Shown here one piece after another: positions 321 to 59,974 of a stretch of 64,000 bases of DNA (position 1 is the stretch's first letter; each line of letters begins with the position of its first letter). Source of the DNA: Neisseria bacilliformis. GTDB lineage: Bacteria > Pseudomonadota > Gammaproteobacteria > Burkholderiales > Neisseriaceae. The notes under the pieces are model-generated. The model ran no database searches. It saw only the letters and a list, made by a program, of their open reading frames with translations, and was not told the origin of the DNA. The translations under genes were made by a program, and so were the position numbers. The DNA lies in NCBI RefSeq assembly GCF_014055025.1, contig NZ_CP059571.1, positions 434,001 to 498,000 on the forward strand. The letters run 5' to 3'.

Positions 321-429
321 GGTAGGGTGTGTGGCGCAGCCACGCACGCGGTTTAAGTTTTGGGGAAGGATACAGATTGGTTGGGCGGCAGGAAACGCGT
401 GCATCGCCTTGGGGCGACACACCCTACCT
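321..429. repeat. REP-like inverted hairpin pair, GGTAGGGTGTG family
   Basis: Two hairpins face each other. The left arm begins GTAGGGTGTGTGGCG and folds on itself; the right arm ends GGCGACACACCCTACC. The family recurs at 551-700, 5823-5940, 12218-12328, 36785-36894, 38750-38856, 38933-39044 and 43414-43523, with half copies elsewhere. The GTAG head plus stem, in inverted pairs, is the layout of REPIN elements. Confidence 0.8.
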
Positions 430-462
430 TAGGTTCGGCATGGATTGGACGGGAAAAGGCCG

Positions 463-515
463 TCTCCGCCAGTACTCCTGCCGAGCATAAACGCGGGAAT
501 GACGTTTCTGAAAAG
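463..515. repeat. dRS3-like repeat
   Basis: The segment links a DUS-like GGCCGTC end to AAACGCGGGAATGACGTTTC. Variants are at 1936-1968, 2038-2071, 7480-7533, 36648-36770, 37258-37296, 38654-38709 and 45211-45252. The CCCGC...GCGGG core resembles the small dRS3 repeats of Neisseria. Confidence 0.6.
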
Positions 516-550
516 CGGATTTTTACTTTTTCAGACGGCCTCTTGCCGTT

Positions 551-700
551 AGGTAGGGTGTGTGGCGCAAGCCACGCACGCGGTTTCGGGGTGCGGGAAT
601 ACCAAGAGGCCGTCTGAAAAATGTGGTTTGCGATTTTCAGACGGCCTTTTGTTTGGGCAGCAAAGAACGCGTGCGTCGCCTTGGGGCGACACACCCTACG
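551..700. repeat. REP-like inverted hairpin pair with a DUS pair inside
   Basis: Same family as 321-429, but the middle holds an inverted DUS pair (606-650) that forms a terminator-like hairpin followed by TTTT. This suggests modular assembly of repeats. Confidence 0.75.
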
Positions 701-780
701 TTAGGTTCGGTATGGGCGGGATGGGAACAGGCCGTCTGAAAGCGCAGCTTCGGCGCAGCCAAAACCCGTTTTATCGGTTT

Positions 781-1872
781 TCAGACGGCCTCATCCGTTT
801 TGCCCGCTAGCGCGTAGGCGGCCAGGGTGGTGCGGTAGATTTCGTCGTCGCCGCACAGGCGCAGCACGCGTTCGCGCAGGGCTTGGCCGCAGCGTTGGCG
901 CAGGGCGGGGTCGGCGGCGAGGGCGGCCAGTGCGTCGGCGAAGGCGGTTTGGTCGCGCAGGGGGGTGCAGAAGCCGGTAACGCCGTGTTCCACCATTTCG
1001 GCGATGCCGGCCACGTCGTAGCTGGCGACGGCGGTGGCGTAGAGGCCGGCTTCGAGGATGTTGTTGCCCACGCCCGCGCCGTGGTCGCCCGCCAAATCGG
1101 GGGTGTTGGCGAGGATGTCGGTGGCGGCGAAAAACGCGTCCAAATCGCGCACCGCGCCGAGGAAGGTTACGCGGTCGGCGATGCCGAGGGCGGCGGCCTG
1201 CGCTTGGAGGGTGGCGGCCTCGGCCCCCGTGCCGCCGATGTGCAGGCGCACGTTCAGGCCGCGTTTCAGCAGCAGGGCGAAGGCGTCCAGCGTGAGGTGG
1301 ACGGCGCGCACTTTGTCCAACCGCGAGAGTGTGCCCAGTGCGACGTAATCGCGCGGCGTTTTCTGCGGCGCGGCGGGGGCGGGCGGCAGGGCGTTGTAGG
1401 TGTAGGCAATCCGCGCGGCGGGGAAGCCGTGGCGGATGAGTTTTTCCTGCTCGTGGCGGCAGTTGGCGATGATGTACACGTACAAGTGTTTGAACAGGCG
1501 GGTGATTTTCGGGTAGGTGGCGGCGTCCAGCCCGCGTGCGTGGTAGAACACGGCACTGTGGCGGGAGGCGAGTTTGGCGGCGAGGGCGCAGGCGGGGACG
1601 AGCCGCGCCATCTGGCAGTGGACGATGTCGGGGCGTTCGCGGCGCAGCACGCGGGCGAAGGCGGCGGCGGCTTTGGCGTAGCCCGCCGCGCCGCCGTAGA
1701 AATCCAGCGGCTGCCAACGCATCCCCGCCGCCTGCGCCTGTGCCACTAGCGGGCCGTCGGACGAGGCCAGCAGCACGTCGTGCCCGCGTCCGGCCAGCAG
1801 TGCGCCCAGGCGCAGGCTGGCGGTTTCCGTGCCGCCCAGCCCGCCCATCGATGTGGCCAAGATGATTTTCAT
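781..1872 (-). CDS. GT4-type glycosyltransferase
   Basis: A 363-residue retaining glycosyltransferase of the GT-B fold, probably acting on a cell-surface glycan or lipooligosaccharide at the cytoplasmic face of the membrane. The N-terminal acceptor domain starts with the glycine-rich loop SMGGLGGTE (residues 8-16). The C-terminal nucleotide-sugar domain has HIGGTG (211-216) and the acidic donor-binding region NNILEAG (270-276), typical of GT4. The start has AAGGAG at a good distance. The last codons are GAG GCC GTC TGA, so the stop codon lies inside a DUS. The sugar and acceptor are unknown. The nearest genes are separated by repeats, so no operon is visible. Confidence 0.85.
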   Translation of the reverse strand: MKIILATSMGGLGGTETASLRLGALLAGRGHDVLLASSDGPLVAQAQAAGMRWQPLDFYGGAAGYAKAAAAFARVLRRERPDIVHCQMARLVPACALAAKLASRHSAVFYHARGLDAATYPKITRLFKHLYVYIIANCRHEQEKLIRHGFPAARIAYTYNALPPAPAAPQKTPRDYVALGTLSRLDKVRAVHLTLDAFALLLKRGLNVRLHIGGTGAEAATLQAQAAALGIADRVTFLGAVRDLDAFFAATDILANTPDLAGDHGAGVGNNILEAGLYATAVASYDVAGIAEMVEHGVTGFCTPLRDQTAFADALAALAADPALRQRCGQALRERVLRLCGDDEIYRTTLAAYALAGKTDEAV

Positions 1873-1935
1873 GGTTTGACTCCTTGTTGCGGCGGCCGGT
1901 TTTGCCCGCGCCGCAAGCGTGTTTTTTGTTTTTCA

Positions 1936-2071
1936 GAAACGCTATCCCCGCGCAGGCGGGGACGGCCTCCTGCCGTGTACAGGCGCAGGGGCGGGGCGCG
2001 ATTGTAAAACGCCCGCCGCGTCGTCGCATCCTTTGAGGCCGTCCCTGCCTGCGCGGGGATGACGTTTCTGA
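1936..2071. repeat. Inverted pair of dRS3/DUS-like repeats
   Basis: Two arms of about 33 bases, built on TTTCAGAAACG, CCCCGC and GCGGGGACGGCCT, face each other across about 70 bases, between the glycosyltransferase and the DUF3298-type gene that are transcribed divergently. Confidence 0.65.
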
Positions 2072-2160
2072 AAAATATTTCCCGCAGCGGCTTGCCCGTT
2101 TTCCCGCGCCGCTTTACGATTGCGCCGCATATTCCAACCGTATTTTGCAAAGGAAAACAT

Positions 2161-3009
2161 ATGTCTGCCAAACCGCTGTTTCTGCTTGTCCTGCCGCTCG
2201 CCGCCGCCGTACACGCCGCGCCGCTGTCGTACCGCACCGTTACGCTCGAAGCCCGCGCCAACTGTGCCAAAACGGAAAAAGAAGCCGGCAACGGGTCCAA
2301 GTGCCACGAGTTGAACGTTGCCTATCCGAAAACCGGCGACAAGGCACTGGACGCTTGGGCACTGCGCCGGATACAGAAAGCCGTCGGCACGAGCAACCTC
2401 ACACCCAAAGGGCTGCAAGCCTATTGGGCGCGCAACGAAGAAGTGAAGGCGGTCAACGAATCCAACGCCGAAGGGGGCGATACGCCCTGCCATCTGGACT
2501 ACAACCGCAGCATCGAATTGCAAGGCCAAACCCCGCATTATGCCGTGTTCGGCGGGGAATACTGGGACTACGCCTGCGGCCCGCACGGCAACGGCGTTTA
2601 CGATCTTGCCGTCGTCAGACGCGATGCGGCTAAGCCCCAAGCCCTCGCGCTCAAAGACATCCTGCTGCCCGGCGGCCGCGCTAGGCTGAACAGGCTGCAA
2701 AAAGAAGCGGCGGCCGAGCATCTGGCCAAGTACCGGAGCGACGATGTGTCGTCCGTGGCCGAAGCCCGTCGCGCCATCGACGAATACACCGGCAAAGATT
2801 TCAAGGGCACGGACAACTGGCGTTTGGCCAAAGGCGGGCTGCTGTTTGTCTTCCAAAGCTACGAAATCACCCCCTATGTGCTGGGCCGCCCCGAAGCCTA
2901 TATTCCGGCGGCAAAACTCAAAGGCATCGTCAAGCCCGAAATCCTGCGCGAGGCGGCGCACTACCAAATCGCGCCGAAGATTTTGAAAGAGGACAAGAAC
3001 GCGAAATAA
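2161..3009 (+). CDS. Secreted protein with DUF3298/RsiV-like C-terminal region
   Basis: A 282-residue exported protein. The start at 2161 is chosen because AAAGGAAAAC precedes the ATG and the protein then opens with a clean signal peptide (MSAKPLFLLVLPLAAAVHA). The mature part has four cysteines, including ANC and KCHE near the N-terminus and PCHLDY and YACGPHG in the middle, which could form disulphides in the periplasm. The second half (DIL..., AEHLAKYR, NWRLAKGGLLFVFQSYEITPY) resembles the DUF3298 domain found in anti-sigma factor RsiV and in many Gram-negative periplasmic proteins. The function is not known. It stands alone between repeats. Confidence 0.7.
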   Translation: MSAKPLFLLVLPLAAAVHAAPLSYRTVTLEARANCAKTEKEAGNGSKCHELNVAYPKTGDKALDAWALRRIQKAVGTSNLTPKGLQAYWARNEEVKAVNESNAEGGDTPCHLDYNRSIELQGQTPHYAVFGGEYWDYACGPHGNGVYDLAVVRRDAAKPQALALKDILLPGGRARLNRLQKEAAAEHLAKYRSDDVSSVAEARRAIDEYTGKDFKGTDNWRLAKGGLLFVFQSYEITPYVLGRPEAYIPAAKLKGIVKPEILREAAHYQIAPKILKEDKNAK

Positions 3010-3077
3010 GGCCGCGCGTCCGAAAGGCCGTCTGAAAAAGCGCAACCCCGTTTTTGGCTGCGCCGAAACTGTGTTTT

Positions 3078-3206
3078 TATAGTGGATACAGATAAAAAGT
3101 ATTCGGTGCAGGCTGGGCTTCAGCCCAGCAAAATATCGGATAAATAGCGAGTTAGCCGGGCTGAAGCCCGGCCTACGGTGGGTATCTTTCATTTTGTTCC
3201 ACTATA
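3078..3206. repeat. 129-bp composite repeat: Correia-like ends around a REP pair
   Basis: The outer ends read TATAGTGGATAC and TTCCACTATA, as in Correia elements. Inside (3108-3176) are two facing hairpins built on GGGCTTCAGCCC and GGGCTGAAGCCC, with heads GCAG and CTAC. A second copy of the same 129-bp length is at 16004-16132. Confidence 0.8.
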
Positions 3207-3279
3207 ACTTCGTTGAAGCTGCGCTTTCAGACGGCCTTTTTTGGTTTTCAGACGGCCTCTGCACAGCAGAAACCGCATA

Positions 3280-3385
3280 TATAGTGAAACAAAATAGGAA
3301 AGATACAAGGCAGCAAGCCGCAGACAGTACAAGTAGTACGGCAAGGCGCAGCAACGCCGTAGATTTTCTATTTTGTTTCACTATA
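3280..3385. repeat. Correia repeat element, short class (106 bp)
   Basis: Ends are near-perfect inverted repeats starting TATAGTGAAACAAAATAG. The interior contains the typical GCCGCAGACAGTACAAGTAG and GCAACGCCGTA segments. The 106-bp length fits the short class of Correia repeat enclosed elements in Neisseria. It lies about 140 bases upstream of the gene at 3525 and could affect its transcription or mRNA processing. Confidence 0.9.
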
Positions 3386-3524
3386 TCGCCTTGGGGTGCC
3401 GGCCACGGGCGTTCTTGGGAAGCGGTTTGCCGATAAGGTTTGAGGCCGTCTGAAAGCGTATTTATGCAATCCGCCCGCGTGCGGCACAGCCGGATTAAAG
3501 ACAAATCAGCAACAAGGAAAAACA

Positions 3525-4385
3525 ATGCGCGATACCGGAGACTACTACGGCTGCGGCCGCAACGGCGGCGATTACGGCGACGGCACGCCGTATCTGCTGG
3601 ATGTGCCTTCTTGGCGGCCGATGAGCGACAGTTTGGTATGGGTCAAACACACGCTGCTGCTGCTCGGCGGCCGGCTGCCCCAGTGGATTTTGGCGGTATT
3701 GCTGGCGGTTGTCTGCATTTCGGTCATATCGTGGCGCGCATTTTTTGCGGTGGTCGCGCTGGATATACAAACGGCAATGGCACAGCACAAATGGTGGGCT
3801 TTTGTCGTCTCGGCTGCGGTATTTTTATTTATGCAGACGCTGCCCCTGCTTTTTGCCGCCGGATTCGTATCGGTCGCGGCGGGCGTGTCGGAAGAACGCT
3901 CGTTTTCGTTCGGCCGCCTGTTCGACGGGTTTGGCGCACAGAAATGGGCATTGGTGAGGCTGTATCTGTTTTGGTTCTTGGCAACGACGGCCTGTTTTAT
4001 TGCCATGGCAAATCCGGAAAATCCCATCGAGGGTAAAATCTTCTGGGTACTTGGCGGCATCTACCTCCTGTTTTTCCTGTGCAACTGGATGTCGCTGCCC
4101 CTGATGATGCTGCAAGGCGTATCCCCCGCCAAAGCCATGTCGATGAGCCTGACAGGCAGCCTGAAAAATATTGTCCAGCTCGGCGGCTTCCTGCTGATCA
4201 TACTGGTGCTGGCATATTTTTTATTAGTCTTGTGGCTGGCCAAAACGGGCGAGATGCTGCAAGGCGGCATCAGCCTGGGATTCGTGGCAAGCCTGTTGGT
4301 GTTTTATGCAATCGCGTTTCCGATACTGCCGGTTATCAGCTACGTTTCCTACCGGAACATCTGGACAAGCAGCCCGCTGAAATAG
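3525..4385 (+). CDS. Polytopic inner-membrane protein of unknown function
   Basis: A 286-residue protein with about six membrane segments (roughly residues 45-75, 88-112, 142-160, 170-195, 215-240 and 248-272) after a polar N-terminus with glycine and tyrosine residues. The overall pattern is like the BPSS1780-type membrane proteins of beta-proteobacteria, but no diagnostic motif was recognised. AAGGAAAAAC before the ATG supports the start. An in-frame GGCAGCCTGAAA sequence near 4158 encodes GSLK and is a Kingella-type uptake-like site. An inverted DUS hairpin follows the gene. Confidence 0.65.
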   Translation: MRDTGDYYGCGRNGGDYGDGTPYLLDVPSWRPMSDSLVWVKHTLLLLGGRLPQWILAVLLAVVCISVISWRAFFAVVALDIQTAMAQHKWWAFVVSAAVFLFMQTLPLLFAAGFVSVAAGVSEERSFSFGRLFDGFGAQKWALVRLYLFWFLATTACFIAMANPENPIEGKIFWVLGGIYLLFFLCNWMSLPLMMLQGVSPAKAMSMSLTGSLKNIVQLGGFLLIILVLAYFLLVLWLAKTGEMLQGGISLGFVASLLVFYAIAFPILPVISYVSYRNIWTSSPLK

Positions 4386-4412
4386 CCAGCCGGATGCGGA
4401 TGCCGAATCAAA

Positions 4413-4446
4413 AAGGCCGTCTGAAAGCGATGCTTTCAGACGGCCT
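4413..4446 (+). terminator. Inverted DUS pair, terminator-like
   Basis: AGGCCGTCTGAAAG, a four-base loop, and the reverse complement ending CGGCCT form a stable stem just behind the membrane protein gene. Only a weak T run follows. Confidence 0.7.
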
Positions 4447-4460
4447 CTCACCGCCCTTGC

Positions 4461-4466
4461 TATAAT
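4461..4466 (+). promoter_or_regulatory. Possible -10 box of avtA
   Basis: TATAAT lies 36 bases before the avtA start, directly behind the upstream terminator. No strong -35 is seen. Confidence 0.4.
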
Positions 4467-4501
4467 CCCCACCACTACAACAACCCCACGAAAGCCACGC
4501 C

Positions 4502-5797
4502 ATGCAATTCTCCCGATTCGGCCAGAAATTCACCCGCCAAAGCGGCATCCTGCAACTGATGGACGACCTCGGCCGCGCCCTGTCCGAAGGCAGACCCGTC
4601 AACATGCTCGGCGGCGGCAACCCCGCGCACATCCCCGCCGTAGAGCAGGTATTCGCCGACACCCTGCGCCAAATCGCCGCCGACGGCGCGGCAGTGGAAA
4701 GCCTGTCCAACTACTCCACCCCCCAGGGCGACGCCCGCCTGATTGCCGCGCTGGCCGCCTACTTCCGCCGCCGCTACGGCTGGGACGTTACCGAACAAAA
4801 CATCGCCCTCACCAACGGCTCGCAAAACGCATTCTTCTACCTTTTCAACCTCTTCGGCGGCGAATTCGACGACGGCAGCGACAAATCCATACTCCTGCCC
4901 CTCTCCCCCGAATACATCGGCTACGCCGACGCCCACATCGGCGCACCCCGCTTCCTTTCCGTCCCCCCGCTGATCGAAAACGCCGAACACAACGGCCAAA
5001 GCGGCTTCTTCAAATACCGCATCGACTTTGCCGTCCTCGAAAACCTGCCCGCACTGCGCGAAGGAAAAATCGGCGCCATCTGCTGCTCCCGCCCCACCAA
5101 CCCCAGCGGCAACGTCCTCACCGACGGCGAAATGGCACGCCTCGACGCCCTCGCCCGCGCCCACCGCGTTCCCCTCATCATCGACAACGCCTACGGCATG
5201 CCCTTCCCCGACATCATCCACGTCCCCGCCCGCCTCGACTGGCACGACAACATCATCCTCTGTTTCAGCCTCTCCAAAACCGGCCTGCCCGGCGTGCGCA
5301 CCGGCATCGTCCTCGCCGCCCCCGAAGTCGTCCGCGCCATCGCCAGCCTCAACGCCATCACCAACCTCGCCCCCACCCGCTTCGGCGCCGCCGTTGCCGC
5401 CCCCCTGATCGAAAGCGGCACCCTGCAACAACTCTCCGAGCGCGAAATCCAGCCCTTCTACCAAAAACAGGCCGAACTGGCCGTCTCCCTGCTGAAAAAA
5501 CATTTTTCAGACGGCCTCGAAAGCAGCCTGAAAATCCACCTTCCCGAAGGCGCGATCTTCCTCTGGCTCTGGTTCCCCCGCCTGCCTGTCCCCGCGCAAA
5601 CCCTGTACCAACGCCTCAAAGCGCGCGGCACCCTCGTCATCCCCGGCGAACCCTTCTTCATCGGCTTCGACACCGCAAACTACCCCCACGCCCGCGAATG
5701 CATCCGCATCAGCATCGCCCAAAACGAAGCCACGCTCGACCAAGGTATCGCCGCCATCGCCGAAGAAGTGCGCAAAGCCTTCGCCGGGGCAGCCTGA
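4502..5797 (+). CDS. avtA: Valine--pyruvate aminotransferase
   Basis: A 431-residue fold-type I PLP aminotransferase that transfers the amino group between valine and pyruvate (alanine/valine exchange) in the cytosol. Visible landmarks are the N-terminal MLGGGNPAHIPAVE, the NPSGN segment (200-204), the cofactor-binding DNAY (228-231) and the PLP lysine K259 in SLSKTGLPGVRTG. Length and motifs fit AvtA. A perfect DUS is embedded in the reading frame at 5506-5517 and encodes FSDGLE (335-340). The stop TGA lies inside GCAGCCTGAA, a Kingella-type uptake-like sequence. The gene stands alone behind a terminator. Confidence 0.93.
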   Translation: MQFSRFGQKFTRQSGILQLMDDLGRALSEGRPVNMLGGGNPAHIPAVEQVFADTLRQIAADGAAVESLSNYSTPQGDARLIAALAAYFRRRYGWDVTEQNIALTNGSQNAFFYLFNLFGGEFDDGSDKSILLPLSPEYIGYADAHIGAPRFLSVPPLIENAEHNGQSGFFKYRIDFAVLENLPALREGKIGAICCSRPTNPSGNVLTDGEMARLDALARAHRVPLIIDNAYGMPFPDIIHVPARLDWHDNIILCFSLSKTGLPGVRTGIVLAAPEVVRAIASLNAITNLAPTRFGAAVAAPLIESGTLQQLSEREIQPFYQKQAELAVSLLKKHFSDGLESSLKIHLPEGAIFLWLWFPRLPVPAQTLYQRLKARGTLVIPGEPFFIGFDTANYPHARECIRISIAQNEATLDQGIAAIAEEVRKAFAGAA

Positions 5798-6959: not shown

Positions 6960-7575
6960 GCAGACGGCGCGGATGCAAAGGCAGCCTGAAAACGGGGACG
7001 GCGTTTTCAGGCTGCCTTTTGTGTTTTCAGACAGCCTCCGATGCCGCCGCAGGGTGTGGCGCAGCCACGCACGCGGTTTGCGGTGGGTGGGGCAACGCGC
7101 GGAGCCGAAACTGTGCTTTTAGACGGCCTTTGAGCGGCATAGAACGCGTGCGCCGCCTCGGGGAGACACGCCGTAGCGTAGGGTGTGGCGCAAACTGCGC
7201 ACGCGGTTTCGGATTGGCGGGGAAGTTGTAGGTCGGATACTTGTATCCGACGTTTTTCCGCAGGGGAAATTCCGTTGTGCGGAATGTCGGATACAAGTAT
7301 CCGACCTACGGCTTCTGCAAGGCGGCGGAGGCCGTCTGAAAACCGGCAAAACCCAATGCGAAAGCAGCCTGAAAACGTCGTCCCCGTTTGCAGGCTGCTT
7401 TGCGCTTACAATAGCGGCCGTCTGAAAACGCCGTTCCGGCCGCCGCAGCGGCGTTTCAGTTGTGCCGGAGCCGCGTTTTCAGAAACGCCATCCCCGCGTT
7501 TATGCTCCGAAGGCGTACGGGCGGGGACGGCCTTCCGTATCGGGCGGGCGTTTTTCCTTTATCAGACCAATACAT
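6960..7575. other. Repeat spacer upstream of the CLC channel gene
   Basis: Contains a GGCAGCCTGAAAAC hairpin (6980-7020), half copies of the GGTAGGGTGTG REP family (about 7048-7205), a GTCGGATAC REP pair (7228-7309), another AGCAGCCTGAAAACG hairpin (7363-7402) and a dRS3-like repeat (7480-7533). No gene is seen. Confidence 0.7.
7228..7309. repeat. GTAG-headed REP pair, GTCGGATAC stem variant
   Basis: GTAG followed by GTCGGATACTTGTATCCGAC, then the mirrored hairpin ending in CTAC. It is the same architecture as the GTCGGGCAT family at 43302, 51136, 56783 and 59904, with compensatory changes in both halves of the stem. Confidence 0.85.
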
Positions 7576-12107: not shown

Positions 12108-12655
12108 GGCTTTTGTCCTTTCAGCTTGTCCGGTTTGCAGGGTGTCGGATTACGGTGTGAGTATAGTGGAACGCGCGGCAGCAGGCATTTTGCCGATAAC
12201 GCAAATGCGGCGTATGAGGTAGGGTGTGTGGCGCAAGCCACGCACGCGGTTTCGGTTGTATGTCATGTTCTGAAATCGGTGATGCGGCAGGGAACGCGTG
12301 CGTCGCCTTGGGGCCACACACCCTACCTGTTGCACGGCGGCCTGCATCGCGGATTTTGACTGCGCCGAAGCTGCGTTTTTCAGACGGCCTTTCCATATGC
12401 CTGAATGTGCGGCGGCTTGGAAGCAGCGGTTATTGGGCGTGTTGACAATCAGCCTTACAGCGGTGTTTTTGGCAAAAAATACCCGCCTGCCGCGTCAAAA
12501 ATGCCCGCAGGTGTCCAAGCTTGCTGCGCTTTTCCCCTTGCATTCGGGCATTTTTACGCAAAAAACCGCTCGCAAGCCGAATGTCAATACTCTCTGGCGG
12601 CGGGGTTTGTTATAGTTGCCGCCTTTTGAAATCCGGAAAGCGTTAGTATAAATCT
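12108..12655. other. Spacer with one REP pair, no gene seen
   Basis: A full GGTAGGGTGTG-family REP pair occupies 12218-12328, followed by a DUS linked to GCGCCGAAGCTGCG. The remaining 270 bases before the MFS gene are unique sequence with no convincing open frame; a palindromic stretch with GCCCGCAGG and runs of A/T is present. Confidence 0.55.
12218..12328. repeat. REP-like inverted hairpin pair, GGTAGGGTGTG family
   Basis: Complete copy: GGTAGGGTGTGTGGCGCAAG arm, about 45 bases of middle, then the mirrored arm ending ACACACCCTACC. Confidence 0.8.
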
Positions 12656-16003: not shown

Positions 16004-16132
16004 CATCGTGGATACAGATCAAGAGTATCTGTCGTAGGCTGGGCTTCAGCCCGGCTCACTCGCTATTTTCACAATATTTTGCTGGGCTGAAGCCCAGCCT
16101 GCAATGGATAATTTTTATTTTGTCCCGCTATA
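16004..16132. repeat. Second copy of the 129-bp composite repeat
   Basis: Ends CATCGTGGATAC and CCCGCTATA are diverged Correia-like termini. The core holds facing GTAG-GCTGGGCTTCAGCCC and GGGCTGAAGCCCAGC hairpins. It sits immediately upstream of dprA, and its right end TATACAT could serve as a -10 box. Confidence 0.75.
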
Positions 16133-16157
16133 CATGCAGTGGACAAGGGAAAACGCA

Positions 16158-17372
16158 ATGCCTCAGCCAAACGAACGCGAAGCCTGGCTCAAACTCGCCC
16201 TGATGCCCCACATCGGCGCGGAAACCTTTTTGCAGCTGGTCAAACACTTCGGCACCGCCGCCGACGCATGGCGGGCGGGTTTGGACGACGCGCGCCCCTT
16301 CCTCCCGCGCAAACAGGCGCAGCAGGCATGGGCGGCACGGCGCGGCGAGGCCGAACGCGCCGCCGAAGCCGCCCTGCGCTGGGAAGCGGGCGAGGGCTGC
16401 CGCCTGCTGCTGTTGTGCGACGACGACTTCCCCGCCCTGCTCGGCGAAGGCATGACCCCGCCGCCCCTGCTGTTTCTGCGCGGCAACGCCGAACTGCTGC
16501 GCCGCCCCGCCGCCGCCATCGTCGGCAGCCGCCACGCCACCCCGCAGGCCGAACGCATCGCGCACGACTTCGGCCGCGCCCTCGCGCAGCAGGGCATCGC
16601 CGTCGTCTCCGGCATGGCCGCCGGCATCGACACCGCCGCCCATCGCGGCGCATTGCAGGGCGCGGGCGGCACCATAGCCGTGTGGGGCACCGGCATCGAC
16701 CGCATCTACCCGCCGTCCAACAAAAACCTCGCCTATGAAATCGCCGAACACGGCCTGATTGTCAGCGAGTTCCCGCTCGGCACCCGCCCGCTGGCCGGCA
16801 ACTTCCCGCGCCGCAACCGCATCATCGCCGCCCTCGCGCAGGCCGTGCTGGTGGTGGAAGCCGCCCTCGAATCCGGCTCGCTCATCACCGCGCGTCTGGC
16901 GGCGGAAATGGGGCGCGAAGTGATGGCCCTGCCCGGCTCCATCGACAACCCGCACAGCAAAGGCTGCCACAAGCTCATCAAAGAAGGCGCGAAACTCACC
17001 GAATCGCTGGAAGACATTCTCAGCGAATGCCCGCAACTGTTGCCAAACGGCGCGGCTTCATCATATGCTATAAATAAAGACGCGCAGCGCGGTGTTCAGA
17101 CGGCCTCAAACGCCAAACAGAGGCCGTCTGAAAACATACCCGCCGCCGCGCCGACGGAGCGGCCGTCCGAACAAACGGCGGCGCAGGCGCAGACAGGCGG
17201 CGCGGACGCAAACCCGCTGCTCGCGGCCATGGGTTACAGCCCCGTCCACCCCGACGCGCTGGCCGAGAGCCTCGGCCGCCCCGCCGCCGACATCTTCGCC
17301 GAACTGCTCGAACTCGAACTCGAAGGCCGCGTCGCCGCAGCGGCCGGCGGCTGCTACCAGCGGGTCGGCTGA
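16158..17372 (+). CDS. dprA: DNA-processing protein DprA
   Basis: A 404-residue cytosolic protein that binds incoming single-stranded DNA and loads RecA during natural transformation. The start at 16158 follows AAGGGAAAACGCA. An N-terminal SAM/HhH-like part precedes the Rossmann-like core with VGSRHAT (about 120-126), SGMAAGID and SEFPLGTRPLAGNFPRRNRI. A C-terminal winged-helix segment (about 345-395) follows a linker. Two perfect DUS in inverted orientation (17096-17107 and 17122-17133) and a decayed third lie in the linker, encoding QTASN and RPSEN. Thus the transformation gene itself carries uptake sequences. Confidence 0.95.
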   Translation: MPQPNEREAWLKLALMPHIGAETFLQLVKHFGTAADAWRAGLDDARPFLPRKQAQQAWAARRGEAERAAEAALRWEAGEGCRLLLLCDDDFPALLGEGMTPPPLLFLRGNAELLRRPAAAIVGSRHATPQAERIAHDFGRALAQQGIAVVSGMAAGIDTAAHRGALQGAGGTIAVWGTGIDRIYPPSNKNLAYEIAEHGLIVSEFPLGTRPLAGNFPRRNRIIAALAQAVLVVEAALESGSLITARLAAEMGREVMALPGSIDNPHSKGCHKLIKEGAKLTESLEDILSECPQLLPNGAASSYAINKDAQRGVQTASNAKQRPSENIPAAAPTERPSEQTAAQAQTGGADANPLLAAMGYSPVHPDALAESLGRPAADIFAELLELELEGRVAAAAGGCYQRVG

Positions 17373-36784: not shown

Positions 36785-36894
36785 GTAGGGTGTGTCGCCC
36801 CGAGGCGACGCACGCGGTCTCCGCCGCATAACCAATCCGCGCGTTTCCCAAAACCCCCAACCGCGTGCGTGGCTTGCGCCACACACTCTACCTT
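36785..36894. repeat. REP-like inverted hairpin pair, GGTAGGGTGTG family
   Basis: Complete copy in the opposite arm order: the GGCGACGCACGCG type arm comes first and the GGCTTGCGCCACAC type arm second. Confidence 0.8.
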
Positions 36895-38749: not shown

Positions 38750-38856
38750 GCAGGGTGTGTGGCGCAAGCCACGCACGCGGTTGGGGGTTTTGGGAAACGC
38801 GCGGATTGGTTATGCGGCGGAGACCGCGTGCGTCGCCTTGGGCGACACACCCTGCG
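38750..38856. repeat. REP-like inverted hairpin pair, GGTAGGGTGTG family
   Basis: Complete copy with CAGGGTGTGTGGCG head and GGGCGACACACCCTG end. Confidence 0.8.
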
Positions 38857-43301: not shown

Positions 43302-43375
43302 GTAGGTCGGGCATTTATGCCCGACTGAACAATACCGGCCAATTCAAAAACGTCGGGCATAAATGCCCGATCTAC
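43302..43375. repeat. GTAG-headed REP pair, GTCGGGCAT family
   Basis: GTAG then GTCGGGCATTTATGCCCGAC, about 26 bases, then GTCGGGCATAAATGCCCGA and CTAC. Confidence 0.88.
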
Positions 43376-43413: not shown

Positions 43414-43523
43414 GCAGGGTGTGTCGCCCCGAGGCGGCGCACGCGTTCTCTGCCGTACAACGAATCCGCGTTTCCCCAAAAGCCCGAGACCGCGTGCGTG
43501 GCTTGCGCCACACACCCTACCTC
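43414..43523. repeat. REP-like inverted hairpin pair, GGTAGGGTGTG family
   Basis: Complete copy with the GGCGGCGCACGCG arm first and the GGCTTGCGCCACACACC arm last. Confidence 0.8.
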
Positions 43524-50874: not shown

Positions 50875-50967
50875 GGCCGTCTGAAAGCCACGAATCCCAA
50901 GCAGGTTGGGCATTGATGCCCGACCTGCAAACCGCAAAACCCGTTTTTCAGACGGCCTAAGGTTAAG

Positions 50968-51034
50968 GCAGGGTGGTATTGACCCACCGTTTGCGGGAAC
51001 GCGCATGATGGTGGTGGGTCAAGACCCACCCTGC
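50968..51034. repeat. REP pair with GGGTGG stem
   Basis: GCAG-GGTGGTATTGACCCACC, a short middle, GGTGGGTCAAGACCCACC-CTGC. Same layout with a different stem. Confidence 0.8.
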
Positions 51035-51135: not shown

Positions 51136-51209
51136 GTAGGTCGGGCATTTATGCCCGACTGAAAAACGCCGGCAAATGTAACAACGTCGGGCATAAATGC
51201 CCGACCTAC
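51136..51209. repeat. GTAG-headed REP pair, GTCGGGCAT family
   Basis: GTAG-GTCGGGCATTTATGCCCGAC ... GTCGGGCATAAATGCCCGAC-CTAC, perfectly symmetric. Confidence 0.9.
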
Positions 51210-54272: not shown

Positions 54273-54339
54273 TTGTTTTAAGCATTGGGGCAAAAACCGC
54301 CGCTGCGCGATACGGGCGGCAGAGGCCGTCTGAAAACAC

Positions 54340-54375: not shown

Positions 54376-54388
54376 CGGTTGGGCGGAA

Positions 54389-54757
54389 TCAGTTTTTGTC
54401 CAAGTCCAAATCTGCTTTGTACTCGATGCGGTCGCGGCTTTTGCGTTCGATGGAAATGTCCAGCTCCTGATCGCCGCGTTTGAATTTCAGGTCTGCATCG
54501 TCGTGTTTGATTTCCGACTCGACCACGCGGAAGCCCTTGCTGCGGGCGTGGGCGGTGGCTTTGCGCGCCAGCGCGGGCACGGACGTGCCGCGTGCGGACA
54601 GGCGGGCTTCGTATTCAAACTCGCCGTCGCCCTGGCGGTCGGCCTTCACCGTGTGTGCGCCGGCGGGGCGGTAGATTTCGGCGGGCAGCGGCGCGGCAGT
54701 GGCGGCGGCGGAAAGCAGCGCGAGCGCGGCGGCGAAGAGGGCAGGGGATTTGTTCAT
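54389..54757 (-). CDS. Small periplasmic protein of unknown function
   Basis: A 122-residue exported protein: signal peptide MNKSPALFAAALALLSAAATA, then a charged domain with EYEARLSARGTSVPALARKATAHARSKGF and DQELDISIERKSRDRIEYK. The alternating charged strands suggest a small alpha/beta fold. Not recognised as a named family. The start at 54757 follows GAAAGG. A strong terminator follows. Confidence 0.7.
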   Translation of the reverse strand: MNKSPALFAAALALLSAAATAAPLPAEIYRPAGAHTVKADRQGDGEFEYEARLSARGTSVPALARKATAHARSKGFRVVESEIKHDDADLKFKRGDQELDISIERKSRDRIEYKADLDLDKN

Positions 54758-55356
54758 GTGTCGGCCTTTCTCGGCGGGTGGGAAAGGCACGGATTCTAGG
54801 GGTGCTTATGCGGCAGCGGCAAGCGGGCTGGCGGGTTTTTACCTGTGGGCGCGGTTTGTAAAGACGGCGCGGGTGCGGCGGGCGGAAACGTTTTGAGGCT
54901 GTCTGAAAAACCTTTTCCAACCACACCGAAACCGTATTTTCAGACGGCCTCAAAGCAGCCTGAAAACGCCGCAGGCACGCGGGCAAACCTTGAAGCGGGG
55001 CAAAACTGCCGCCTGTGCGGATGCCGCTATGGGAGGCCGTCTGAAAACGAAGTTTTAATGAAGTTAAAACCCTGCGCAGGCCGGGCGGCAGCGGCGTGTT
55101 TCGTTCGGCAAGTGGTTTTCGCCGCCCTTTCAGACGGCCTGAAACCAAACCATTGCAGCGGGTAAAGATTCGAAAGCGGGTGCAAAGGTGGGTTAGCTTT
55201 CCTTTACGGAATTGAAAAAAATCATTGTTTTCAACGGATTAAGTTTTTCAGACGGCCTTGGCCGCCCGCGCCGCCGGTATCCGCCCCGCCGCCGCGCTCC
55301 TATAATCGGCCTGCCTGCCGCGTGGCGGGTGTTTCCCAACCCTTAGGAGAATTGCC
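54758..55356. other. Spacer with scattered uptake sequences
   Basis: About 600 bases with DUS at about 54936, 55034, 55126 and 55246, a degenerate one near 54897 and a Kingella-type AGCAGCCTGAA near 54956. No REP pair and no convincing gene. The last 150 bases hold a likely promoter for the next gene (TATAAT at 55301-55306). Confidence 0.6.
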
Positions 55357-56157
55357 ATGAACAAAATCATCGTAGCCGTATTCAACCAAGAAACCGAGGC
55401 CGCCAAGCTGCTGAACAGCCTGTCGGAGCTGCACCGCGACGGCCGCATCAGCGTGTACGGCACCACCGTGTTCGCCAAAGACGCCGACGGCAAAATCAGC
55501 GTGAAACAGCTCGACGGCGGCAGCGGCGCGGCCACCCTTACCGGCCTGCTGTTCGGCGGCCTGGTCGGCGCGCTGGCCGGCCCCGTCGGCCTCTTGGCGG
55601 GCATGGCTCTGGGCGGCCTCGGCGGCTCGCTGGTGGATTTGGAAGACGCGGGCATCGACGCGCGTTTCGCCGACGAAGTGGCCAAAGTGCTCACCCCGGG
55701 CAAAGTGGCGGTTTTGGCCGACATCCAAGAAGAATGGACCGCCCCGCTGGATGAGGCCGTTGCCGCCGCAGGCGGGCTGCTCTACCGCCGCAACAAGGCC
55801 GACATCGCCGACATCCAGTGGCAGCGCGACCTGGCCGCCTACAATGCCGAGCTGGACGCGCTGGAAGCCGAGTTGAAAACCGCCGCCGCCGAAGACAAAG
55901 CCAAGCTGCAACAGCACATTGCCGACGTCAAACAGAAAATCGCCGACACCCAGAGCGCGTGGCAGGGCAAATGGGAAAAAACCAAACAGGATGCCGAGGC
56001 CAAACTCAAAACCTTGCAGGCACAGCGCGAAGCCGCGTCTGCCGAACGCAAAGCCAAAATCGACGCGCGCATCGACGCGGTGAAAGCCGATTTGGCCGAA
56101 CGTGGCAGTAAGCTGGAAAAAGCGGGCGAGCTGGTGAAAGAAGCCTTGAAAAAATAA
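55357..56157 (+). CDS. DUF1269 protein with coiled-coil tail
   Basis: A 266-residue protein. The first 150 residues match the DUF1269 pattern: KIIVAVFNQETEAAKLLNSL, VKQLDGGSGAATLTGLLFGGLVGALAGPVGLLAGMALGG (a Gly/Ala-rich hydrophobic segment at about 60-92) and AVLADIQEEWTAPLDEA. Residues about 165-266 are Lys/Glu/Ala-rich heptads forming a long coiled coil. The function is unknown; such proteins may act as stress-related membrane-associated factors. AGGAGAATTGCC supports the start. Confidence 0.8.
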   Translation: MNKIIVAVFNQETEAAKLLNSLSELHRDGRISVYGTTVFAKDADGKISVKQLDGGSGAATLTGLLFGGLVGALAGPVGLLAGMALGGLGGSLVDLEDAGIDARFADEVAKVLTPGKVAVLADIQEEWTAPLDEAVAAAGGLLYRRNKADIADIQWQRDLAAYNAELDALEAELKTAAAEDKAKLQQHIADVKQKIADTQSAWQGKWEKTKQDAEAKLKTLQAQREAASAERKAKIDARIDAVKADLAERGSKLEKAGELVKEALKK

Positions 56158-56180
56158 ACGGTTGAATGCTTGCTTGGCAA

Positions 56181-56238
56181 AGAGGCCGTCTGAAAGTAGG
56201 TTTTAACTTCGTTGAAACTTCGCTTTCAGACGGCCTTT
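56181..56238. terminator. DUS pair with GTTGAAACTTCG filler between convergent genes
   Basis: AGGCCGTCTGAAAG...CTTTCAGACGGCCT with the inner words AACTTCGTTGAAACTTCG. The same module returns at 56611-56664 and partly at 3207-3238. Confidence 0.7.
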
Positions 56239-56468
56239 CAGCCCTCCACGCTCGCGGCCACCAGTTTTGCCACCAGCGGGCGCACGGCCAGCAGGCTGGC
56301 GAAGGCCACCGGCCAGGTAATCAGGTAGGACTTCGCCAGCCGCAGCGGATGGCCCGCGTCCAGCCCCGTGTTGAGCGCGACCAGCACGCCGCTGACAATC
56401 AGCACCATCACCGCCGAGGCGTAAAAGGAAAACATTACGCCTGCGTATTTTTTCGGCAGTTTTTTCAT
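56238..56468 (-). CDS. DUF2798 small membrane protein
   Basis: A 76-residue inner-membrane protein with two helices. KKLPKKYAGVMFSFYASAVMVLIVSGVLVALN and LRLAKSYLITWPVAFASLLAVRPLVAKLVA match the DUF2798 pattern of two-helix proteins. Function unknown. GGAAGGGACGCG precedes the ATG. Confidence 0.8.
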   Translation of the reverse strand: MKKLPKKYAGVMFSFYASAVMVLIVSGVLVALNTGLDAGHPLRLAKSYLITWPVAFASLLAVRPLVAKLVAASVEG

Positions 56469-56856
56469 CGCGTCCCTTCCAGACAAAACAAAACGGCAGT
56501 TTAACCCGTGCGCAAAACGGTTAAAATACGAAAAACCGTCCGCATCCGGCGACAAACGCACAATCAGGCCGCCTGAAAACGCCGCCCAAAGCAGCCTGAA
56601 AATACAGAAAAGGCCGTCTGAAAAACGGTTTTTAACTTCGTTGAAGCTTCGCTTTCAGACGGCCTGTCGCCGGGGAAAAGCAGCCTGAAACCTTTGTTTC
56701 CGGTTTTCAGGCTGCATCCTTCGCAAAATCTCGGGCATTTTCAAACCGCGTGCGTGGCAGAGCCGCACACCCTACCGAGTCCGTAGGTCGGGCATTGATG
56801 CCCGACAAAGACAGACACGGGCGGATTTTAAAAAACGTCGGGCATCAATGCCCGAC
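56469..56856. other. Repeat spacer upstream of DUF2798 and downstream of the Sel1 gene
   Basis: Contains Kingella-type AGCAGCCTGAA sites, a DUS pair (56611-56664), a hairpin of AGCAGCCTGAAACC (56681-56716), a half GTGCGTGG REP (about 56742-56775) and the start of the REP pair at 56783. Confidence 0.7.
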
Positions 56857-56860
56857 CTAC
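56783..56860. repeat. GTAG-headed REP pair, GTCGGGCAT family
   Basis: GTAG-GTCGGGCATTGATGCCCGAC ... GTCGGGCATCAATGCCCGAC-CTAC. On the minus strand the GTAG head supplies the TAG stop of the Sel1 gene. Confidence 0.9.
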
Positions 56861-57443
56861 TGCGCCGCGCCCAGCCGTGCCAGTGCGGCTTCGGCGGCGG
56901 TTTTCACGTCGGCATCGCCTGCGGCGGTGGCTTTGCGGTACCACGATACGGTGGTGTCGCGCGAGGCGGGCATGCCTTCGCCTTTTTCGTACATTGCGCC
57001 CAGTGCGTTCATGGCGGGGCGGCGATGTGGTCGCCGCGTTGGGCGGAGATCTGGTACCAGTGCAGGGCTTGGGCGTAGTTTTGCGCGGTACCGGCGCCGT
57101 GTTCGTAGCACCAGCCCAGCCAGTATTGCGAGGTGATGTCGCCTTTGGCGGCGGCGGTTTGGAATTGGGCGAAGGCGCGGGCGGGGTCTTTGGATAGGCC
57201 GCTGCCGTTGAGGTACATCAGGCCGATGTAGCGCGGGGCTTTGAGGTTGCCCATGGCGGCGGACTGTTTGAACAGCGGCAGGGCGGCGGCGTAGTCGCCT
57301 TGCTGGTAGAGGGCGACGCCTTGATTGAGGATGGTGCGCGACTGCTCGAAGGCGGGGCTGCCCGGGTCGGGGTCGGGGGCGGTGCAGGCGGCCAGCAGGG
57401 AGGATACGGCTGCGGCAGCTATGATGGCTGACGGTTTGTCCAT
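56857..57443 (-). pseudogene. Sel1-repeat lipoprotein, frameshifted
   Basis: The gene opens with a signal peptide and lipobox LLAAC (C20), then Sel1/TPR-like repeats (GVALYQQGDYAAALPLFKQSAAMG, APRYIGLMYLNGSGLSKDPARAFAQFQTAAAKG, SQYWLGWCYEHGAGTAQNYAQALHWYQISAQRG). At about 57010-57020 the frame runs to a premature stop (AAPP-stop), while another frame continues the expected MNALGAMYEKGEGMPASRDTTVSWYRKATAAG to 56857. The break lies in GCCGCCCCGCC, compatible with a five-base duplication. It may be a true pseudogene or a sequencing error. The outer stop lies in a REP head. Confidence 0.8.
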
Positions 57444-57517
57444 TGCGGTGTCCTGTCTGCGGTTGGCGGAAGCGGCATTGTACGGGCAAAACGGGGAGGC
57501 CGTCTGAAAAGCGGGTT

Positions 57518-58081
57518 TCAGGCTGCCTTGCCATCACCGCCGTCCAATTTATCCAACAGCGCAACCAGCCCTGCCGCGCAACTTTCGGCTTTGCTTTGCA
57601 CCTGTTCGGGCGTGTACAGCGCGGGCGATGTGCCGTGGAAATAGAAGGGGTCTAGATAGTTCATCTGCGCGTAATATGCGGTTTGCTCTATGTTTTTGCA
57701 CAACTCCAACACGCGGAAATGGGCGACGCCGTCGGCGCGGTAATCGGCTGCGGGCGAGCCGATGGTGATGCTGGCAACGAGGTTTTTGCCTTTGAGTTTG
57801 TCGCCCGTGCTGCCGTAGGCGAAGCCGTGGGTAAACACGCAGTCAAAATAGTGTTTCAAGATGGCGGGCATGTTGTACCAGAACATCGGGTATTGGCACA
57901 CGATGGTTTGGTGGCGCAGCAGGGCTTGTTGTTCGGCGGCGGCGTCAATGCGAAAATCGGGATAGAGTGCGGCGAGGTCGCGGATTTCGTAGTGCGGGCG
58001 GGCGGCTTGCAGGTGGGTGATAACGGCTTTGTTGGCAACGGATTGTTGGAAGTCGGGATGGGCGAGGAGGATGAGTGCCAT
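57518..58081 (-). CDS. NAD(P)H oxidoreductase of the KefF/MdaB flavodoxin-like type
   Basis: A 187-residue flavoprotein, probably a quinone reductase. LILLAHPDFQQSVANKAV is the FMN phosphate loop; VCQYPMFWYNMPAILKHYFDCVFTHGFAYG is the typical QFPLYWYSxPALLK-type segment of the family. The stop TGA lies in GGCAGCCTGAA, a Kingella-type uptake-like word. AAAGGACAAAC precedes the ATG. It is divergent from the HxlR regulator at 58251, a common pairing in which HxlR senses electrophiles and controls the reductase. Confidence 0.9.
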   Translation of the reverse strand: MALILLAHPDFQQSVANKAVITHLQAARPHYEIRDLAALYPDFRIDAAAEQQALLRHQTIVCQYPMFWYNMPAILKHYFDCVFTHGFAYGSTGDKLKGKNLVASITIGSPAADYRADGVAHFRVLELCKNIEQTAYYAQMNYLDPFYFHGTSPALYTPEQVQSKAESCAAGLVALLDKLDGGDGKAA

Positions 58082-58169
58082 GTTTGTCCTTTCGGGGCGT
58101 GGTGGGAAATGCGCCGATTGTAGGCAGCCTGAAAAGCTGAAACAAGAACTATCCTTTTGTATAGGTGTG

Positions 58170-58244
58170 AGAACCTGTATTCATTATTTTCATAGGCATC
58201 TTTCATGCCCTAAAATCTGCCTAAAAATAATGGATACAGGTTCT
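58170..58244. promoter_or_regulatory. Long inverted repeat in the reductase/HxlR divergent region
   Basis: AGAACCTGTATTCATTATTT (58170 on) is mirrored by AAATAATGGATACAGGTTCT (ending 58244), arms of about 27-29 bases with one mismatch and a two-base gap, spaced by about 20 bases. Its place between the two divergent genes suggests operators for the HxlR protein; the right arm overlaps an alternative ATG of hxlR. Confidence 0.65.
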
Positions 58245-58250
58245 GAAAAA

Positions 58251-58631
58251 ATGAAAACAGAATGCCGCAACGGCGCGTTTGGCTTGAACGGAAAAATTTA
58301 CCCTTGCACGCTCAGCGTGGCGATGGATTTGGTGGGCGGCAAATGGAAGGCGGTCATCCTTTACCATTTGCAGGACGGCGCAAAACGCTTCGGCGAGCTG
58401 CACACGCGCCTGCACAATGCTACCGAAGCGGTGTTGAGCCGCTGCCTGCAACAGTTGGAACGCGACGGCTTGGTGTCGCGGCAGGTGTTCGGCAGCAAGC
58501 CGCCACTGAAAAGCGAATACGCGCTCACGGATTTCGGGCGCAGCTTTCTGCCTGTGCTGGCTGCGCTGACCGAGTGGGGCAATCAGGTGATTGTGGCGCG
58601 GGGGAGTTTTGTGGATGAGGGGCGCGGATAA
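58251..58631 (+). CDS. HxlR family transcriptional regulator
   Basis: A 126-residue winged-helix regulator. CTLSVAMDLVGGKWKAVILYHLQDGAKRFGEL is the diagnostic HxlR opening and includes a conserved cysteine that senses quinones or aldehydes in YodB/HypR-type members; LSRCLQQLERDGLVSR is the recognition region. An ATG at 58230 is an alternative start. Its divergent neighbour is a quinone-reductase-like gene. Eight bases after the stop lies an IS1106-like element. Confidence 0.9.
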   Translation: MKTECRNGAFGLNGKIYPCTLSVAMDLVGGKWKAVILYHLQDGAKRFGELHTRLHNATEAVLSRCLQQLERDGLVSRQVFGSKPPLKSEYALTDFGRSFLPVLAALTEWGNQVIVARGSFVDEGRG

Positions 58632-58638
58632 TCAGGCA

Positions 58639-59857
58639 GAGACCTTTGCAAAATCCCCCCCAAATCCCCTAAATTCCCACCAAGACATTTAGGGGATTTC
58701 TCATGGGCACCTTCTTTCAGCAAACCGCACAAGCCATGATTGCCAAACACATCGATCGCTTCCCACTATTAAAGCTGGATCAAGTGATTGATTGGCAACC
58801 GATCGAACAGTACCTGAATCGTCAAAGAACCCGTTACCTCCGAGACCACCGCGGCCGTCCCGCCTATCCCCTGCTGTCCATGTTCAAAGCCGTCCTGCTC
58901 GGACAATGGCACAGCCTCTCCGATCCCGAACTCGAACACAGCCTCATCACCCGCATCGACTTCAACCTGTTTTGCCGTTTTGACGAACTGAGCATCCCCG
59001 ATTACAGCACCTTATGCCGCTACCGCAACTGGCTGGCGCAAGACGACACCCTGTCCGAACTGCTGGAACTGATCAACCGCCAACTGGCCGAGAAAAACCT
59101 AAAAGTAGAGAAGGCATCCGCCGCCGTCATTGACGCCACCATTATTCAGACCGCCGGCAGCAAACAGCGTCAGGCCATAGAAGTCGATGAAGAAGGACAA
59201 GTCAGCGGCCAAACCACACCGAGTAAAGATAAAGATGCCCGTTGGACAAAGAAAAACGGCCTCTACAAACTCGGTTACAAACAACATACCCGCACCGATG
59301 AGGAAGGCTATATCGAGAAACTGCACATTACCCCCGCCAATACCCATGAGTGCAACCATCTGTCGCCTTTGCTGGAAGGGATAGCCGAAGGCACGACCGT
59401 CTATGCCGATAAAGGCTACGACAGTGCGGAAAACCGGCAACATCTGGAAGAGCATCGGTTGCTGGACGGCATTATGCGCAAAGCCCACCGCAACCGTCCG
59501 CTGACGGAAGCGCAAACCAAACGTAACCGATATTTGTCGAAGACCCGTTATGTGGTCGAACAAAGCTTTGGTACGCTGCACCGTAAATTCCGCTACGCCC
59601 GGGCAGCCTATTTTGGGCTGATTAAAGTGAGTGCGCAAAGCCATCTGAAGGCGATGTGTTTAAACCTGTTGAAAGCGGCTAATAGGCTAAGTGTGCCTGT
59701 TGCTGCCTAAAAGGCGGCTCGGATGCCTGATTATCAGGTATCCGGGGAGGATTAAGGGGGTATTGGGGTAGAATCAGTGGATATTTGAAACAAAAACAGC
59801 CAAAAATCTTTATTTAGGTTTCGGCTGTCGGGGAAAAAGGAATTTTGCAAAGGTCTC
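58639..59857. mobile_element. IS1106-like insertion sequence (IS5 family)
   Basis: About 1219 bp with terminal inverted repeats GAGACCTTTGCAAAAT at the left and its complement at the right (59842-59857). Removing it together with one A at the left edge joins AATCAGGC to CGTCTGAAAATCGG and restores a perfect DUS, so the element landed inside an uptake sequence of the hairpin behind hxlR. No target duplication is evident. Confidence 0.9.
58703..59710 (+). CDS. IS1106-like transposase
   Basis: A 335-residue DDE transposase of the IS5 family. FPLLKLDQVIDWQPIEQYLNRQ and the DUF772-type N-terminal domain lead to VIDATIIQT with the first catalytic aspartate, VYADKGYDSAENR with the second and RYVVEQSFGTLHRKFRYARAAYFG with the glutamate. 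It is full length and intact, so the copy could be active. A palindrome AAATCCCCTAAATT.../TTTAGGGGATTT lies just before the ATG and may limit impinging transcription. Confidence 0.95.
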   Translation: MGTFFQQTAQAMIAKHIDRFPLLKLDQVIDWQPIEQYLNRQRTRYLRDHRGRPAYPLLSMFKAVLLGQWHSLSDPELEHSLITRIDFNLFCRFDELSIPDYSTLCRYRNWLAQDDTLSELLELINRQLAEKNLKVEKASAAVIDATIIQTAGSKQRQAIEVDEEGQVSGQTTPSKDKDARWTKKNGLYKLGYKQHTRTDEEGYIEKLHITPANTHECNHLSPLLEGIAEGTTVYADKGYDSAENRQHLEEHRLLDGIMRKAHRNRPLTEAQTKRNRYLSKTRYVVEQSFGTLHRKFRYARAAYFGLIKVSAQSHLKAMCLNLLKAANRLSVPVAA

Positions 59858-59903
59858 CGTCTGAAAATCGGTTTTTCAGACGGCCTGTTGTGTTGGAAAT
59901 AGC

Positions 59904-59974
59904 GTAGGTCGGGCATTCATGCCCGACAAATACTGGCGGACTGGGGAAATGTCGGGCATGAATGCCCGACCTAC
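59904..59974. repeat. GTAG-headed REP pair, GTCGGGCAT family
   Basis: GTAG-GTCGGGCATTCATGCCCGAC ... GTCGGGCATGAATGCCCGAC-CTAC. On the minus strand its GTAG supplies the stop of the gene at 59971. Confidence 0.9.

Follow-up and report, generated by a model that had tools for sequence, protein, structure and literature searches.

Repetitive extragenic palindromic sequences (REPs) form short hairpins with a GTAG foot, occur as inverted pairs (REPINs) and accompany Y1 transposases that have a REP of their own (REP-associated tyrosine transposases, RAYTs; PMC2817692, PMC3116915). REPINs have been described as non-autonomous and duplicated by single-copy RAYTs (PMC8049555), which in Escherichia coli are reported to cleave single-stranded REPs at GTAG (PMC3733652). 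One genome can hold several REPIN families, as in Pseudomonas fluorescens SBW25 with its three groups, in which compensatory changes were already described (PMC3116915). Where a species has several GTAG families, its RAYT elements are repeat-specific (PMC3733652; also the table in PMC2817692), and GTAG repeats of Neisseriae are already in print (PMC3733652). TATAGGA...TCCTATA palindromes enclose many GTAG-15 dimers of Anabaena variabilis, so that a REP dimer is combined with TATAG ends, and none of these palindromes was found without REPs (PMC3733652). Correia elements (CREE/NEMIS) are regarded as IS630-derived miniature inverted-repeat transposable elements (MITEs; PMC2817692). They are gene-free and about 100–150 bp long, end in TATAGTGG and target TA (PMC2649163, PMC2911385).

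Here, we analyse a 64,000-nucleotide stretch of the Neisseria bacilliformis genome (positions 434,001–498,000 of a single 2.49-Mb contig, NZ_CP059571.1; the window). At least six REP/REPIN families, all of one genome, are represented in the window: F1 (GTGTGTGGC), F2 (GTCGGGCAT), F2b (GTCGGATAC), F3 (GCTGGGC), F4 (GTTGGGT) and F4b (GGTGGGT). The families share the GTAG foot, the hairpin, the inverted pairs and the RAYTs of the known REPIN systems, from which they differ in two respects. Most F3 copies are locked in a TA-type MITE, and no flanked RAYT was found for three of the six stem types. Taken as a whole, we consider it probable that the REPIN families are tied to RAYTs of their own and that an F3 REPIN was captured in a Correia-type MITE. 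A first-pass annotation, made from the sequence alone, had proposed several REPIN populations; the several families stand, but most F3 copies are MITE core rather than free REPINs.

The REPIN–MITE chimera as the form of F3 is new here, the REPIN/RAYT part being already known in kind. We recognised no description of REPINs inside Correia-type elements in the parts of the open-licence literature consulted, which is no proof of absence. The Anabaena case concerns another phylum and other sequences, and the passage describing it contains no RAYT comparison, no relative with bare REPINs and no TA-target argument (PMC3733652).

F3 REPINs and their outer inverted repeats

Most F3 REP pairs form the core of a unit of about 129 bp with inverted ends TATAGTG...CACTATA (TATAGTGG...CCACTATA) and TA targets. 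These inverted repeats lie outside the GTAG/CTAC ends and had been overlooked in the first-pass annotation. In an alignment built from the REPs alone (73 F3 REPs of this genome), conservation outside GTAG extends for about 30 nt and begins exactly at TATAGTG; the flank columns are 64–71% conserved, whereas past the adjoining T no column exceeds 45%. Such flank conservation is not present in 47 F3 REPs of G024, a related genome with 65 F3 REPs. TATAGTG (at most one mismatch) stands at the expected place in 47 of the 73 REPs here and in 2 of the 47 of G024 (shuffles 2.8 and 0.7), and the two G024 matches belong to one element with a different inner sequence. F3 context in relatives other than G024 is that of one or two F3-like loci in each genome.

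Two patterns for the terminal inverted repeats (TIRs) gave 12 and 23 matches in this genome, at 24 sites, and none in 45 other Neisseria genomes when up to three mismatches were allowed. All 35 matches adjoin F3 REP sequence; in L258 this sequence is truncated, and in L260 it is rearranged. A looser pattern (TATAGTG, 19–27 bases, GTAGGNNGG) matched 23 times here (22 F3, one F4b), twice in G024 and once in each of four other genomes, with two control matches. Both borders could be set for 24 units, of which 13 measure 129 nt, 23 start with TA and all 24 end with TATA; these units were picked by ends within two mismatches, and the TA-end counts are partly a product of that construction.

Six of the 24 units lie against one and the same repeat of the genome, TTT-TA-ACTTCGTTGAAG, which is exact in five cases and a variant in the sixth. 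Similar copies of this repeat number 15 in 464 kb, 14 of them unoccupied and 12 preceded by TTTT. The unoccupied repeats read TTT-TA-ACTTCG and so reveal the TA target. A dispersed repeat, TTTTAACTTCGTTGAAG, with a tail resembling the DNA uptake sequence (DUS), found at 56201 and 56630 of the window and elsewhere, repeatedly serves the chimera as a TA target. In L014, a chimera unit is inserted at TA between the apparent arms of an F4b-type REPIN. At the chimera copy at 16004–16132, the genomes G007 and G011 match both sides without the element, with left homology ending at the TIR, and among the matches listed this genome alone has the bases of the element. This copy lies upstream of dprA and brings with it an upstream ATG in frame with the gene (16104–16158); the dprA starts of the relatives align about 54 nt further in. 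Promoter activity and RNase III processing have been reported for Correia elements.

Across 28 F3 REP pairs of this genome, the loop between the two REPs is alike (mean identity 0.74) and has exactly 25 nt in 21 of them, compared with a mean identity of 0.36 and lengths of 15–33 nt in 14 pairs from G024. This argues for one founder that spread from TIR to TIR, not from GTAG to CTAC, and such a founder is the most likely ancestor of the F3 copies here. An alternative is that all families, F3 included, are ordinary RAYT-moved REPINs, and that the F3 flanks are just the favoured landing site of the REPIN, with a RAYT inserting time after time into Correia-type MITE hairpins that were already there. 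The REPIN does stand at the element's centre of symmetry, and a Correia-type element with similar ends is present in the window. Furthermore, an F4b REP occurs once inside a TATAGTG-ended unit, as a single REP (GTAGGGTGGGTCTTGACCCACC, a sequence listed for Haemophilus parasuis; PMC2817692) in 104 bp between TIRs (genome 2,384,461; L401 962–1065). However, every unit matched by either TIR pattern adjoins F3 REP sequence, the common loop is unlike that of the free F3 REPINs of G024, and no F3-flanked RAYT was found here. We therefore regard a landing site as quite improbable.

The Correia-type element just mentioned is 106 bp long (3280–3385) and lies 73 bp from the first chimera copy. Its TIRs are like those of the chimera, and it starts TATAGTGAAACAAAATAG, as do the right TIRs of the chimera. 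We take its core to be the classical Correia core, which would make the element a likely sibling. Its length fits the 104–108-bp class of Correia elements, which target TA (PMC2649163). The chimera differs from published Correia elements in having a REPIN as its core, and its inner TIR departs from the published 26-bp repeats. As far as the sequence goes, 'Correia-type MITE' fits the F3 element, but 'Correia element' does not, because the core is an F3 REPIN and the conserved Correia core is absent. The F3 flanks might also be an independent TA-inserting insertion sequence or MITE, without Correia-type TIRs, that a REPIN had entered. Only the first 8–10 bases match published Correia patterns (PMC2911385), and the inner TIR bases differ. 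Against this stand the TATAGTGAAACAAAATAG start common to the 106-bp element and the right chimera TIRs, and TA targets that agree with those of Correia elements (PMC2649163), and we hold an independent element to be unlikely.

RAYT genes and their flanking stems

The genome has three Y1_Tnp matches above the cut-off. All are RAYTs that have matching REPs at either end, each with one stem type on its flanks, and they bear out the surmise that several RAYT genes lie outside the window. R1 (2.20 Mb) is intact and lies between F2 REPs; R2 (1.58 Mb) is intact and lies between F4 REPs, whose GTTGGGT stem was not on the earlier list; and R3 (1.95 Mb), between F1 REPs, is broken into two frames with an in-frame stop near the end. 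A 12-row Neisseria RAYT profile, which matched R3 as two pieces, detected no further RAYT gene in this genome. The idea that each stem type has its own flanked RAYT held for two of six stems with an intact gene and for one with a broken gene; for the other three (F2b, F4b with GGTGGG, and F3) none was found in profile searches of one assembly.

Other Neisseria do carry RAYTs with F3 or F2b stems on their flanks. The F3-flanked gene, R4, is intact in the genome G021 (L043), which has only three F3 REPs, two or more of which adjoin the gene: a RAYT nearly without a REPIN population. G024 has a RAYT remnant with three stops that is nearest to R4 (107 bits, compared with 93 to R2), with an F3-like REP 129 bp away. 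The NCBIfam model REP_Tyr_transpos (cut-off 80) was passed by R1, R2, R4 and an unbroken relative of R3 with 178–197 bits, and the RAYT profile matched the E. coli TnpA-REP structure 4er8 with an E-value of 1.6e-62. Across the Neisseria set, 35 of 46 genomes gave RAYT-profile matches, some of them fragments only.

The RAYT tree tracks the flanking stem. For 37 genes, some of them broken, all with clear flanking REPs, and 11 stem labels assigned by hand, the protein tree required 10 label changes, which is the minimum; shuffled labels required 23.4 on average, and none of 200 shuffles was as low. Four GTCGGGCA variants carry one common label. Since five labels stand on a single gene each and near-copies help clustering, the weight of the RAYT–stem match lies on the multi-gene labels. 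The labels GTCGGATAC (10 genes), GTTGGGT (3), GGCGGGCAT (3) and GTGCATG (2) each fall on one side of a branch, whereas GTGTGTG (10 genes) and GTCGGGCA (4) are not single clades, each enclosing another label. The GTCGGATAC (F2b) label marks a RAYT clade of other species that was not found here. Genes that were partial or divergent or had no clear flanking stem were left out (L035, L049, L058, L143, L146, L386–L389, L391, L392 and L397–L399), as were repeats of the same gene among L363–L385.

The frame break of R3 (L003; genome 1,953,061–1,953,574) stands at the same place in 7 of 14 aligned R3-type loci (L003, G003, G008, G009, G012, G019 and G055), and unbroken copies are present in other genomes. 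In the downstream frame, three equal-length copies have synonymous to other differences of 13:5, 12:3 and 11:4 over 92 codons. Either the common break would be bypassed, by frameshifting or an internal start, or the frame would be kept fresh by recombination; the broken R3 need not be a dead gene. Between species, R3 and its nearby REPs are 88–93% identical (L003 ~1106–2003 compared with L056, L057, L058, L141, L386 and L369), with little match in the sequence of these loci beyond this block. The RAYT–REP block of R3 thus seems to stand at different places, moved or exchanged as a unit.

We also compared the ratio of exact copies to copies with at most one mismatch, which was 0.61 for F1, 0.69 for F2, 0.81 for F2b and 0.76 for F3. 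The ratio for F4 was 0.18 (control 18/22, and hence uninformative) and that for F4b was 0.09 (control 9/101). Greater visible decay had been considered for families that lack an intact RAYT, but these ratios do not show it.

REP families in the window and across the genome

All eleven coordinates named in the first-pass annotation are GTAG- or GCAG-headed palindromes as described, to within one base. Their foot and short palindrome, the facing pairs, the many copies and the RAYTs flanked by the same stems identify them as REPs and REPINs. The stems are less unrelated than had been supposed, four of the five named having G[TC]AGGNNGG in common. The elements of the window are listed in Table 1. 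The F1 REPIN at 38750–38855 contains a 94-nt stretch that is 97% complementary to 36799–36892.

Table 1. REP, REPIN and MITE-type elements in the window (window coordinates).
Element	Position	Strand	Evidence
F1 REPIN (GTGTGTGGC arm / GTGTGTCGC arm)	322..427	+	coordinate check, family pattern
F1 REP pair	553..699	+	blind scan, family pattern
Chimeric MITE, 129 bp, TIRs TATAGTGG..CCACTATA, F3 REPIN (REPs 3108-3129, 3155-3176)	3078..3206	+	coordinate check, blind scan, fold z -5.1
106-bp element, same kind of TIR, non-REPIN core	3280..3385	.	fold z -7.6
F2b REPIN (GTCGGATAC)	7228..7309	+	coordinate check, blind scan
F1 REPIN	12219..12326	+	family pattern
Chimeric MITE, 129 bp, F3 REPIN (REPs 16034-16055, 16081-16102), just upstream of dprA	16004..16132	+	coordinate check, blind scan, fold test
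F1 REPIN	36785..36891	+	family pattern
F1 REPIN, GCAG/CTGC ends	38750..38855	+	coordinate check, family pattern
F2 REPIN (GTCGGGCAT)	43302..43375	+	coordinate check, family pattern, fold z -10.7
F1 REPIN	43414..43520	+	family pattern
F2 single REP	50901..50924	+	blind scan, family pattern
F4b REPIN (GGTGGGTC)	50968..51034	+	coordinate check, blind scan, fold test
F2 REPIN	51136..51209	+	coordinate check, family pattern
F2 REPIN	56783..56860	+	coordinate check, family pattern
F2 REPIN	59904..59974	+	coordinate check, family pattern

A blind scan of the window for G[TC]AG followed by a stem of 7–9 bp found 43 GTAG/GCAG-type hairpins, compared with 2–12 in ten dinucleotide shuffles; such a scan also picks up DUS terminators and chance hairpins. 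Ten alternative heads gave 1–23 matches each in the real window sequence. The highest counts, for TAGG (23) and AGGT (13), are due to shifted readings of GTAGG. The family pattern GTAGGNNGGGCATNNATGCCC matched 10 times in the window and never in shuffles (one site being counted on both strands), and GYAGGGTGTGTNGC matched 21 times, with a shuffle mean of 0.17.

Beyond the window, we sampled 400 kb of the genome as 20 evenly spaced stretches of 20 kb, with the reversed sequence as control. The sample contained 91 matches for F1 (pattern GTGTGTNGC), 43 for F2, 24 for F2b, 14 for F3, 18 for F4 and 25 for F4b, the F4 and F4b patterns overlapping, and the control gave none for any family. The GTAG/GCAG-headed hairpins, often in facing pairs, are thus far more numerous than chance would give, in the window as in the genome. 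Whole-genome counts, each with a control of 0, were obtained for F2 (249 raw matches, inner palindromes being partly counted on both strands) and F3 (70 matches at 43 sites); the numbers for F1, F2b, F4 and F4b come from the sample. The GTCGGATAC and GGTGG stems have many further copies elsewhere in the genome. Among close neighbours in the sample, facing pairs made up 17 of 26 for F1, 5 of 13 for F2, 5 of 8 for F2b, 6 of 6 for F3, 5 of 5 for F4 and 7 of 9 for F4b. The remaining F2 neighbour pairs were mostly inner-palindrome matches on one strand.

The window is also very dense in DUS repeats (GCCGTCTGAA), with 109 in 64 kb, often as inverted pairs. Both these and the Correia-type repeats point to Neisseria. 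Many of the palindromes lie near DUS inverted repeats in spacers, and five of six units folded with 200 shuffles each were more stable than all of their shuffles, as would be expected if the palindromes were not mobile elements but terminators, of transcription or of the DUS type. This explanation is nevertheless highly improbable, given the GTAG/CTAC polarity within pairs, the six sequence families, the agreement of the RAYT tree with the flanking stem and the TA boundaries of F3. As mobile elements, REPIN palindromes may still serve as terminators secondarily.

Compensatory stem changes, from which ongoing selection on the fold had been proposed, were modest. GCTGGGC has one variable stem pair (C-G 37, T-A 16, T.G 14, C.A 3 and other 3; n = 73), which is weak evidence of selection because the copies are related. 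In F1, REPIN pairs combine a ..GTGGC arm with a ..GTCGC arm in 22 of 27 cases. Each arm pairs with itself, and these two arm types therefore account for part of the apparent compensatory change. Ongoing selection is not established, as self-pairing unequal REPIN arms and common descent explain much of the pattern.

REPIN populations and their mobilisers

The free REPINs of F2 and F4 would most likely be copied by the flanked intact RAYTs R1 and R2, with cleavage of single-stranded REPs at GTAG, as we infer from E. coli. F1, the most abundant family in the sample, flanks R3, whose frame is broken here. For F3, the unit that multiplied would be the MITE of about 129 bp, inserted at TA and presumably moved in trans by a transposase of the IS630 type that acts on the TATAGTG ends. 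The REPIN would have entered a Correia-type MITE, rather than the TIRs having arisen around a REPIN.

The TIRs, the TA boundaries, the common loop with its one founder, and the failure to detect such TIRs in 45 relatives or R4 here can be read from the sequences; the entry of a REPIN into the MITE and the IS630-type enzyme that would move the F3 chimera are presumed. Several points weigh against this account. The absence of R4 and R1b comes from profile searches of one assembly, and the G024 remnant was assigned to R4 by best hit alone. The copy-identity ratios do not separate families with an intact RAYT from those without. No fully clean empty site was found, the right side of G007 and G011 at 16004–16132 being too diverged to place. 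A clear TATAGTG at the expected place is missing from 26 of the 73 F3 REPs; several of these look like decayed TIRs, and L017, L192, L193, L199 and L201, which have no TIR trace, could be free REPINs. G024 also holds its one TATAGTG-ended F3 element, so that a single capture is limited to the family of this genome. Lastly, the F4b unit of L401 has a fold no better than that of shuffled sequence (z -1.6; 13 of 200 shuffles did as well).

A broader proposal is that a REPIN family with no RAYT of its own left persisted by changing its mobiliser, having become the core of a TA-inserting MITE of the DDE type (Correia/IS630), and that REPs enter the hairpin centres of TA-MITEs repeatedly, as a general route. 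Repeated entry is suggested by the Anabaena precedent together with the single-REP units seen here (F4b) and in G024. We advance this proposal tentatively, as having slightly less than an even chance.

In this one genome, REPIN families whose flanked RAYT is intact, broken or not detected occur together with one family that is mostly MITE-borne, and a relative, G024, carries the same F3 REPs in free form. This combination opens the survival of REPIN populations to testing by strain comparison. A conserved pair of GTAG palindromes is, by itself, no proof of RAYT-driven spread. If the capture of F3 is as proposed, its hairpin would now spread by an enzyme unrelated to RAYTs; if REPs enter such MITEs repeatedly, REPIN populations could in this way outlive their RAYTs.

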